Source: a bacterium
Lineage (GTDB): Bacteria; Patescibacteriota; Dojkabacteria; JAKAPS01
Direction: 5' to 3'
NCBI GenBank assembly: GCA_021806925.1
Contig: JAKAPS010000007.1
Location: 1-53,515, forward strand
DNA: 53,515 nt
The position numbers and the translations under genes are program-made. Under the pieces are notes generated by a model, which saw only the letters and a list, made by a program, of their open reading frames with translations, had not been told where the DNA came from and ran no database searches. Each line of letters opens with the position of its first letter. Position 1 is the first letter of the stretch. Shown piece by piece: positions 35,464 through 39,558 of the stretch.

Positions 35464-36750
35464 CTATTTTTCAACACGAAGACCGTTTCTTCCAGGTCTA
35501 TAGTGAGTTTTTTTATCCTTTAATAAAAATTTCGATCCTAAACGGGCAAATATTTCCCTTTTAGTTTGGATATCACCATATTCAAATCTTCTTCTTGCCT
35601 TAGACCAAAAGTTCAATACATCAATAACTTCATCTGCTCCTTTGTTCTGATTTTCATTTAATTCATTAATAGCTGAAAGAATCTTGTCTTTCTCCTTTGT
35701 ATATTTAACTTTCCTTTCTCTAAATTCCTCATCAGTAAGTATATCTGGATTATTTACTTTTAAATCAATCAAAGAGTTCAATCTAGTTACTACAACCTCA
35801 TAATCCTTCTGTAGTTTATTTAATTGTGATTCTATAAGCTTTCTATCTTCGGCCACATTATCTTTAATATATTTCTCTGCCCAATCTATGTACTCCTGTG
35901 GAATATCAAGATTATTCATTAAATCTAGTGCTGTGAGTTCTATGTATTCGACTGTTGCTCCTTTCTTTTTCTGAGCACATGTAACCCCAACTTTTCTTCC
36001 AGTACAATGATAATAGACATGATCTTTTATACCACCGCTAGTTAGTAATCTTTGCTTTTCTGTAGCAGTAATCATAGCTCCGCAATCACATTTTATAACA
36101 CCTGTAAATGCAAAATCATGTGTTTTAGGTCTTGGTTTTCCTTTTCTTCCTAAAATAAGTTGTATTTTGTCATATTCTTCAGGGGGCATTAAAGGAGTAT
36201 GAGAACCTTTATACCATACACCACCATATTCAAATTCCCCATAATAGAAAGGGTTTGTAAATATTTTATAAGCAGTACTATTTTGTAGCTTTATTCCTTT
36301 TGGAGTAATGAAGTGATATTGCTCATTCATGATATTTATTATCTGTGGCACTGTATAAAGACCTGTAAGCATCATATCCACCATCTTACGAAGTAAGGGG
36401 AACCGTTCTTCATCAACAAAAACAGCTTTCTTACCTTTCTCTCCAGTAAAGTCACATTTATAGCCTAAATTCGGTAACCCTGGTTTAAATCCCTTCTCTG
36501 CTTTTGAAGTTAATCCCCGTTTTACATTCTTCGCTAGATCAACAGAACTTTGAGTTGCCATACCAAATTCTATTGTCAGAATGAGTTGGTCAGCAATTGT
36601 ATACACTCTATCATTCGTTATAATCTGCCTAAGTTTTCCTTGCATCAATAACGCTAAAATAGTACCCCCATCAATGGGATTTCTTGCAAGTCTATCTGCT
36701 TTCCAGCAAAAGATTGTATCGTACTTGCTCCTATTGACTGCCCCATCTCC
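35464..36750 (-). pseudogene. Serine recombinase lacking the catalytic-serine N-terminus (5'-truncated)
   Basis: Frame is open from 36750 (after TAG at 36751-36753): ...NRSKYDTIFCWKADRLARNPIDGGTILALLMQGKLRQIITNDRVY, then recombinase and zinc ribbon; no YARxS motif. Confidence 0.75.
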
Positions 36751-36917
36751 CTAACAACTGCGAGGTCTTTTTGTACTTTTGCGGCAAGTAATCCATATCC
36801 TAACTCAGTAGATAAAATAATAAGCTGTTGCAATGCCATTTCTCTAGCAGCTCGAGGATCCATTCGAGCCATCTCTATTTTTGCCTCTAAAGGCATGTCT
36901 CCATAATTAGTTGCCAT
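36654..36917 (-). CDS. Hypothetical ORF overlapping the truncated recombinase in another frame
   Basis: Complete 87-aa ORF; its 3' part overlaps the recombinase frame, so it may be chimeric. Confidence 0.3.
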   Translation of the reverse strand: MATNYGDMPLEAKIEMARMDPRAAREMALQQLIILSTELGYGLLAAKVQKDLAVVREMGQSIGASTIQSFAGKQIDLQEIPLMGVLF

Positions 36918-36986: not shown

Positions 36987-37619
36987 TTAAACAGCTATAG
37001 TGCCATCAAACTTTGCCATCTTGTTCATAAGAATGTTTGTAATACTCTTTGGCACAATCTGGTCTTGCCTCACACCTACATTTGCCAAAAAGTCCTTAAT
37101 TATTTGTTTTGAATTTTCCGCATTTTCTTGCGAAGTTATTATCTCTATTTCCGTAGCGACTCCAAAATCTTCTATATATTCCATATTTACCGTCATTTTT
37201 TTCTCTTCAATATAAAAAGATTTTCTTGTTTTCTTTAATCTAAAAAATGGTTTAAATCCAATTGCCTTAAATATCAAATAGCTCTCTTCCAATGACCCAA
37301 TATCAGTTTCATGCTCTTCCCAAGCATTATGATCACCATAATTAGTTATTACCTTTATATTTAAATAAATCTCTTTCTTTCCCTCCTTTTCTTTTTCTCT
37401 TAACCTAAGGCTATATGAGCCCACCTCATTCATCTCAATCTCAGAAAATTCTTTAACTTCATTTCTGCAAAAATATAAATCAATCAATTTTTCTTCTCCC
37501 ATATATTTCCCTTCTCCAGCTTCTAACCTTTTAAAAAGTATCTTTGCTTGTGATTCTTCTAGTATTGCACGAATTTCAACTTCAATGTTTTCGTTTGTAT
37601 TTCTTTTATGTATAATCAT
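36987..37619 (-). CDS. CYTH-domain protein (class IV adenylyl cyclase / triphosphate tunnel-like)
   Basis: IEVEIRAIL (ExExR/K), SYSLRLREKE, RLKKTRKSFYIEEKKMTVNMEYIEDFGVATEIEI. Confidence 0.85.
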   Translation of the reverse strand: MIIHKRNTNENIEVEIRAILEESQAKILFKRLEAGEGKYMGEEKLIDLYFCRNEVKEFSEIEMNEVGSYSLRLREKEKEGKKEIYLNIKVITNYGDHNAWEEHETDIGSLEESYLIFKAIGFKPFFRLKKTRKSFYIEEKKMTVNMEYIEDFGVATEIEIITSQENAENSKQIIKDFLANVGVRQDQIVPKSITNILMNKMAKFDGTIAV

Positions 37620-37664
37620 ATAAGTATTATTGGTATTTTAACCTATCATTATAATCTATTGCAA

Positions 37665-38234
37665 ATGGATAAGAGAATAGTGTTTTTAACTTTTTCGAAC
37701 AAAGAATATAGGCAAAGCCCTAGCAAATATGACAATTTAATTTCACTCATCGAAAAAGACTGTAACTGCGAGATTAGACATAAGTGGTTTGAAGAAGATC
37801 CGGGGAGGACCCCAGAACAGATCTATAATAGATCGTTAATAGCAATAAAGGCCGCTGATATATTTATAGCAGAAATATCTTCACGATCCACCAGTATAGG
37901 GTCACAAATAAGTTATGCTTTAAATTTGAAAAAACCTGTCTTTGCTCTACTCGATGAAAGTACTGAGACTTCGAAAGATTCGCTTTTTCTAAAAGGTATT
38001 CAATCTCCTTATCTAAAAATTATTTATTACAATAATCTCAACGATTTATCTCAATCTTTATGTAATGCAATCAATACTCTAAAACCTGATAAATTAGAGA
38101 AGTTCAATTTTGTGGCTACAAAGTCAATAAAAGAATCTCTTTTCAGTGAGAGTAGAAAGCGTGGTATGTCAGTATCGCAACTACTGAGGCATATCATTGA
38201 AGAATGGATTAATAATCAAAAACAAGGTGAATAG
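37665..38234 (+). CDS. Nucleoside 2-deoxyribosyltransferase-like protein with possible ribbon-helix-helix C-terminus
   Basis: IVFLTFSNKE...IKAADIFIAEISSRSTSIGSQISYALNLKKPVFALLDE (NDT-like); C-terminus VATKSIKESLFSESRKRGMSVSQLLRHIIEEWI. Confidence 0.65.
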   Translation: MDKRIVFLTFSNKEYRQSPSKYDNLISLIEKDCNCEIRHKWFEEDPGRTPEQIYNRSLIAIKAADIFIAEISSRSTSIGSQISYALNLKKPVFALLDESTETSKDSLFLKGIQSPYLKIIYYNNLNDLSQSLCNAINTLKPDKLEKFNFVATKSIKESLFSESRKRGMSVSQLLRHIIEEWINNQKQGE

Positions 38235-38692: not shown

Positions 38693-38986
38693 ATGATACC
38701 TAATGAATTCAGAAAGTATTTATGGGATTCTAAATTTGAGTCATTAGACTTACATAAGAACAAAAGGTACATTATTTCTAGAATTCTTGAACATGGAGAT
38801 CTTACTACTGCAAAAATAATTCTTAATATATATTCACATGATGATATAGCAGATGTAATAATTTCTTCAACTGATATATCTCCAAGAACTGCATATTTTT
38901 TTAAGAATTATCTTAATATAAAGCAACCAATAAAATGTTTAACGATGCAATTAACAAAACAGCAAAGGAAGCTCTGGCCATATTAA
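38693..38986 (+). CDS. Putative antitoxin-like partner (DUF6922-like)
   Basis: FRKYLWDSKFESLDLHKNKRYIISRILEHGDLTTAKIIL; overlaps the downstream AbiEii-like gene. Confidence 0.6.
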   Translation: MIPNEFRKYLWDSKFESLDLHKNKRYIISRILEHGDLTTAKIILNIYSHDDIADVIISSTDISPRTAYFFKNYLNIKQPIKCLTMQLTKQQRKLWPY

Positions 38987-39558
38987 GTAATATAAAAGAA
39001 CTCAATTCTTTTTATCTTGCAGTCGGGACAGGATTAACTATACAGATCGGTCATAGAATATCATATGATCTTGATTTCTTTTCATTCAATACTTTTGATT
39101 TAGACTATACAATATACAGTATTACAAAAGCAATAAATTTCACAAATATAACAACTAGTGAAAACACATTGCGTGGATTCTATAATGATTGTGAAATAAG
39201 CTTTTTCCTATATAAATACCCACTACTATCAAAACAAGCAGAATTCATGAATATTAAGGTGGCATCAATTAAAGATATAGCATTAATGAAATTAATAGCA
39301 ATTGGAGGGAGGGGACTCAAAAAAGATTTTTACGATATATATTTTATAATAAAAGGATACATTCCACTCAAGGAAATAATCAACTGCTTTGATGATAAGT
39401 ATAGAGTTGGGAGATTCAATAAATTTCACTATATAAAATCATTAACATATTTTGATTTGGCTGATGAAGATGATAGTAATTTAAATCTCCTAACTGATGT
39501 TTCCTGGGATGACGTGAAATCGTATATATACACTCAATCCTTAAAGATATTAGAATAA
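38935..39558 (+). CDS. AbiEii/AbiGii-type nucleotidyltransferase toxin-like protein
   Basis: LAVGTGLTIQIGHRISYDLDFFS, IKDIALMKLIAIGGRGLKKDFYDIYFI. Confidence 0.85.
   Translation: MFNDAINKTAKEALAILSNIKELNSFYLAVGTGLTIQIGHRISYDLDFFSFNTFDLDYTIYSITKAINFTNITTSENTLRGFYNDCEISFFLYKYPLLSKQAEFMNIKVASIKDIALMKLIAIGGRGLKKDFYDIYFIIKGYIPLKEIINCFDDKYRVGRFNKFHYIKSLTYFDLADEDDSNLNLLTDVSWDDVKSYIYTQSLKILE

Follow-up and report, generated by a model that had tools for sequence, protein, structure and literature searches.

Described systems related to the locus

DNPH1 is a sanitiser of the nucleotide pool (PMC10603095) and, like MilB and BcmB, belongs to the nucleoside-5'-monophosphate N-glycosidases. In human DNPH1 the E104Q substitution is inactivating, leaves the substrate bound and uncleaved, and has been used for crystals with intact substrate (PMC10603095), and in rat DNPH1 a Tyr to Phe change causes a 280-fold loss (PMC10483697). 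The CYTH superfamily includes the CyaB-type class IV adenylyl cyclases and archaeal triphosphate tunnel metalloenzymes such as SaTTM (Saci_0718), and three motif tests tell class IV adenylyl cyclases and thiamine triphosphatases apart from each other and from the remaining triphosphatases (PMC8233210). Here we analysed a locus in which a CYTH gene stands head-to-head with a gene for an NDT/DNPH1-like protein with a predicted C-terminal ribbon-helix-helix (RHH) tail. The pair most likely resembles regulated nucleotide housekeeping more than virus defence.

The window, that is, the whole stretch of 53,515 nucleotides that was analysed, is one contig of a 0.93-Mb genome; judged by the CYTH gene, its nearest relatives include records under the names Patescibacteria, Berkelbacteria and WS2. 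Its relevant features are as follows.

36987–37619, minus strand: CYTH gene (triphosphate tunnel metalloenzyme), 210 aa; predicted triphosphatase (Pfam, structure neighbours, AF2)
37608–38234, plus strand: NDT/DNPH1-like gene with predicted C-terminal ribbon-helix-helix tail (NDT-RHH), ORF of 208 aa; likely start 37665 (189 aa)
37569–37583, minus strand: ExExR motif E13-V-E15-I-R17, where the CYTH hallmark is ExExK (from translation)
37905–37907, plus strand: codon CAA for Gln81, aligned to the human DNPH1 nucleophile Glu104 (family alignment)
38100–38219, plus strand: predicted ribbon-helix-helix DNA-binding segment (RHH profile matches; AF2 confidence low here)
37620–37664, no strand: divergent intergenic region of 45 bp with TATAAT and an imperfect palindrome
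37650–37655: TATAAT within the intergenic gap
37632–37643: imperfect palindrome GGTATTTTAACC, weak and not significant
38693–38986: DUF6922 gene, paired with the AbiEii-like nucleotidyltransferase gene
38935–39558: AbiEii-like nucleotidyltransferase gene, downstream of the pair

Both ORFs were confirmed, and so was the head-to-head arrangement given in an earlier note on this DNA. The overlap of 5' regions that the same note described is doubtful: the 12 bp shared by the predicted 5' ends probably stem from the annotation. NDT homologues begin at the Met at position 37665, and the true layout is therefore probably one of divergent genes 45 bp apart. The TATAAT at 37650 ends about ten bases ahead of this start, a spacing from which we infer a fit to a leaderless transcript.

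The CYTH protein is most likely a triphosphatase

The assignment to the CYTH family held, with a Pfam match that scores 34.4 bits, above the cut-off of 23.2, and an AF2 model with a pLDDT of 89. The closest solved structures, by sequence and by fold, are SaTTM and PH1819; Yersinia CyaB is also near by fold, and the match to the CyaB-type model TIGR00318 lies below cut-off. The window protein thus shares superfamily and fold with the CyaB-type cyclases but departs from them at each diagnostic position. The class IV N-terminal motif HFxxxxExExK is absent, with N7-T8 at the position of HF followed by EVEIR; the gatekeeper arginine, a small residue in class IV cyclases, is kept as R72; and the second glutamate of ExE, an alanine in that class, is kept as E159. 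The W/YxRxR motif of thiamine triphosphatases reads SLRLR, so that both arginines are present with a small preceding residue, and both glutamates of ExE are present as well. The tunnel fold, xxRxR and ExE of TTM triphosphatases are all found, and ExExR replaces ExExK in 8 of 8 aligned members of this CYTH subfamily. SaTTM likewise combines xxRxR with a small first residue, a C-terminal ExE and no HF motif; the window protein differs from it in ExExR instead of ExExK, in an identity of only about 20%, and in that its activity is a predicted one.

Because HF is missing, the arginine motif reads SLRLR and ExE is intact, the window CYTH falls into the triphosphatase class and not among the class IV cyclases. 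We conclude from these motifs that the protein is most likely a triphosphatase. No match to the cNMP-binding family PF00027 was found in the window genome, which is 92.7% complete. On the motif tests together with this result we reject cyclase signalling, and the potential cyclase activity raised earlier was not borne out. Such CYTH proteins are repeatedly mis-annotated as adenylyl cyclases, which the assignment also corrects.

The NDT domain has a hydrolase fold with replaced catalytic residues

The single NDT sequence matches the Pfam family Nuc_deoxyrib_tr with E=3e-4, under the curated cut-off, and a scan of genome contigs with it gave no match; the alignment of the NDT family, for its part, contained no sufficiently conserved stretch. 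A profile built from 13 family members matches DNPH1/Rcl structures with E=1e-20, which upheld the NDT-like identity, and the best Foldseek matches of the predicted structure are MilB, BcmB and DNPH1. The domain therefore has the DNPH1-type N-hydrolase fold, and it shares with DNPH1/Rcl and MilB/BcmB the Asp80 equivalent (Asp65) and a phosphate-site Ser. The active site, for which a structural check had been suggested, does not hold an intact triad: Tyr24-Asp80-Glu104 of DNPH1 is replaced by F7-D65-Q81, and Phe-Asp-Gln occupies the same positions in the WS2 homologue. Tyr24 has thus become Phe and Glu104 has become Gln, and in further difference from DNPH1 the window protein has an extra, predicted C-terminal RHH tail and is a predicted sensor instead of an enzyme. 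With its catalytic residues gone, the pocket probably serves to sense nucleotides. Of the proposal that the protein senses or cleaves nucleotides, the nucleotide-centred logic survives and the cleaving effector does not, two of the three catalytic residues being replaced.

The RHH segment suggested at the C terminus proved weak in the window sequence (RHH_1, E=0.009) and recurrent in the tails of the family: RHH_3 matches 6 of 14 tails, with a best value of 1e-4 in sister proteins, and RHH_1 matches 4. A CopG-family match in the PDB has E=0.007, and AF2 modelled the window tail with low confidence.

A family of NDT-RHH proteins and the genes beside them

The family profile matches in 92 of 380 genomes sampled across the phylum, scattered through Patescibacteria. 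Among the family sequences examined, the RHH tail is present in 57 and absent from 42, and the catalytic Glu is kept in 19 of the former and 35 of the latter (Fisher p=7e-7). Gain or loss of the RHH accounts for no more than about three changes on the family tree, where a sign test is not significant; the difference therefore does not amount to an independent contrast. A tree of the RHH-bearing proteins joins those of the window and WS2 as sisters (support 99) inside a clade of 19 members whose support is 86, not 95. The full Y-D-E triad occurs in none of these 19, and 15 have Gln at the Glu position.

With the WS2 operon left out, 13 clade members have a divergent gene less than 200 bp upstream. 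Twelve of the 13 partners are NUDIX proteins (six), MazG or MazG-like proteins (two), a Ham1-like, a YfbR-like and a Ppx-GppA protein, and the window CYTH; the Ham1-like and YfbR-like assignments are both below cut-off. Across the entire genome of the window, by contrast, NUDIX is matched only 5 times. The neighbours of the clade would thus point to control of nucleotide-pool enzymes. Partners in other NDT-RHH clades are VOC-fold proteins, methyltransferases and endonuclease III. Among these, the genes divergent from a separate clade that keeps the Glu encode VOC-fold proteins of the glyoxalase family (L090, L092, L093, L094 and L096). At another locus (L079:4813-6069), a Ppx-GppA protein divergent from an NDT-RHH gene itself matches Nuc_deoxyrib_tr weakly at its C terminus, and at three loci (L098, L102 and L103) the NDT-RHH genes lie near a small ORF with RHH alone and a gene read by eye as PIN-like.

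Co-occurrence of the pair elsewhere, which the earlier note had asked for, was found twice. In the distantly related WS2 genome homologues of both genes, at 38% identity for NDT-RHH and 44% for CYTH, are arranged as an operon, 2 bp apart, in the order NDT-RHH then CYTH and not divergent; the divergent gene there is GreA-like. In CRAIB_MAG31, the nearest relative, the two are head-to-head as in the window, with an intact CYTH gene and an NDT gene that is frameshifted and truncated. An NDT-RHH gene adjacent to CYTH is absent in five or six other genomes of the CYTH subfamily. These absences, and a gap in which a clear operator was not found, would suit a triphosphatase gene that merely neighbours an unrelated regulator of another gene. 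We consider such a chance arrangement unlikely, for both genes are again adjacent in WS2, where the NDT protein is the tree sister of that in the window, and in the nearest relative.

The same distribution bears on a toxin-antitoxin reading, in which the RHH protein would be an autorepressing antitoxin and the CYTH triphosphatase the toxin. RHH domains are frequent in antitoxins, other TA-like genes are adjacent, and the WS2 genes follow the order antitoxin to toxin with their 2-bp gap. An intact CYTH gene nevertheless persists next to the disrupted NDT gene of the nearest relative, and several relatives have CYTH with no adjacent NDT-RHH gene, which together leave this explanation a very slim chance.

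Candidate operators and a proposed model of regulation

The palindrome TGTGTA-N5-TACACA occurs 6 times in 488 kb of fetched neighbourhoods, against 0.05 expected, and each of the six sites precedes an NDT-RHH gene by less than 200 bp. A second, ATGTGCATATTGCACAT-like palindrome marks another NDT-RHH subgroup. Clear palindromes are present at at least six sister loci, where their position upstream of the genes speaks for autorepression and for regulation of the divergent gene as well; the palindrome of the window locus is weak. The best one in its 45-bp gap is equalled by 37% of shuffles, no sequence resembling the sister operators was found in that 45-bp region, and a promoter scan gave fewer sites than shuffles. 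Any operator at the window locus is thus a putative one.

The palindromes also bear on the view that the two proteins are a pair of sanitation enzymes, in which the NDT domain would, its replaced residues notwithstanding, still hydrolyse a nucleotide and the RHH tail would only dimerise it, with no regulation. Sanitation is the role of DNPH1 itself (PMC10603095), the clade neighbours are sanitation enzymes, and Asp65 and the phosphate-site Ser are retained. Glu104 is, however, essential in DNPH1, where E104Q is inactive, and the RHH tail together with the palindromes upstream of sister genes speaks for DNA binding. We regard two-enzyme sanitation as rather improbable.

The reading that we favour, at about an even chance of being correct, is that NDT-RHH is a ligand-responsive repressor of the triphosphatase gene in nucleotide-pool housekeeping. 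It builds on what was observed of the layout of the genes, their fold families, the state of the motifs, the spread of the family, the return of the pair in other genomes and the palindromes at sister genes. The DNPH1-type domain would bind a nucleoside or deoxynucleoside 5'-monophosphate, plain or modified, with no cleavage owing to the Tyr to Phe and Glu to Gln replacements. Through its RHH tail on the short divergent promoter region, NDT-RHH would repress both the CYTH gene and its own gene; accumulation of the nucleotide would lift repression of the CYTH gene, and the triphosphate tunnel phosphatase would then hydrolyse triphosphate or (d)NTP substrates. Here the DNA binding at the window locus, the ligand, the direction of regulation and the CYTH substrate are the inferred parts.

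More broadly, and with somewhat less assurance than an even chance, we propose that NDT-RHH proteins are widespread, apparently undescribed one-component regulators of Patescibacteria derived from a DNPH1-type N-hydrolase. One clade would have become a natural substrate trap (Glu to Gln, the replacement engineered to arrest human DNPH1) joined to RHH that senses aberrant NMPs and controls a divergent NUDIX, MazG, Ham1-like, YfbR-like, Ppx-GppA or CYTH gene. In the literature searched, which comprised open-licence papers only, no description of an NDT/DNPH1-type domain fused to RHH was found. NrtR, a Nudix-fold sensor with a winged helix, shares the proposed logic, in which a nucleotide-binding domain of enzymatic origin is coupled to a DNA-binding one and nucleotide-related genes are under control; the NDT-RHH proteins differ from it in an unrelated, DNPH1-like sensor fold and an unrelated DNA-binding domain. 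Little is known of sensors for damaged or non-canonical nucleotides in the pool. If the proposal is true, the inactivated hydrolase pocket offers a direct handle, as the ligand could be found by binding or co-crystallisation and the operators are visible as palindromes, and likely roles could be assigned to many unannotated small proteins of Patescibacteria.

Mobile-element and defence context

The pair had been described as cargo of a mobile element, and this was not sustained. Only a partial recombinase lies beside it, and no convincing bounding repeats were found around the pair; in the nearest relative the pair is present with no adjacent recombinase gene. The piece in the window (35464-36917) is a CcrB-like serine recombinase lacking the N-terminal catalytic part, and an adjoining ORF of 87 aa has no Pfam match. 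The neighbouring AbiEii-like locus is real.

Defence by cyclic nucleotides or nucleotide depletion would have the CYTH protein make or degrade a signal and NDT-RHH sense it or cleave nucleotides. In its favour, the CYTH gene is accessory and patchily distributed, the NDT domain has a nucleotide-binding fold, AbiEii-like genes lie near CYTH in the window and, as fragments, in L191, and a candidate PDC-M21 pair lies near CYTH in Croceitalea (L119). The class IV cyclase motifs are, however, absent from the CYTH protein, the genome yielded no cNMP-binding protein, the NDT catalytic residues are replaced, and sister genes adjoin nucleotide hydrolases. PADLOC gave no match to CYTH, and the only defence-family match to either protein was that of NDT to Cas3b, which is weak (E=0.001) and probably spurious. 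Likeness to Pycsar and CBASS, drawn in the earlier note, goes as far as a nucleotide-enzyme gene neighbouring a gene for a nucleotide-binding protein: those systems join a cNMP cyclase or CD-NTase to a cNMP-sensing effector, and the window pair has no cyclase of known families, no effector, no cNMP receptor and no PADLOC match to them. Defence by cyclic nucleotides is poorly supported, and we judge the defence reading as a whole highly unlikely; the small probability left to it stems from the accessory CYTH gene and the AbiEii-like and PDC-M21 genes near some loci.

Distribution of the CYTH subfamily

The CYTH subfamily comprises the window protein and seven relatives. CRAIB_MAG31 is the nearest (67% identity). 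Two MAGs from the same order share 58-60% with the window protein, Berkelbacteria 49% and WS2 45%; the remaining two are a single flavobacterium, Croceitalea (42%), and a MAG that stands further off (34%). A universal housekeeping gene conserved in all relatives, which would have counted against the earlier note, is not what was found: the gene is accessory, being missing from some genomes of the same order. No CYTH of this subtype was found in 300 other genomes from the family of Croceitalea. A phage or plasmid origin was rejected, with CYTH unmatched in phages, plasmids and viral contigs and the window NDT unmatched in phages.

In WS2 and Croceitalea this CYTH subtype adjoins a class-II-like ribonucleotide reductase (RNR) that is short, at ~580 aa (L120:2356-4095 and L119:4250-5998, respectively). 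The two RNRs are 44% identical, their usual NPCxE motif reads APC[GA]E, and each genome has another, larger RNR match. RNR with CYTH as a phage-borne module was discarded, since phages, plasmids and viral contigs gave no RNR closely related to these. Finally, in two genomes of the class (L193:5607-6371 and L194:5598-6362; Pfam run on L193 only) a CYTH domain carries at its N terminus a fused HTH_17 domain of the excisionase type.
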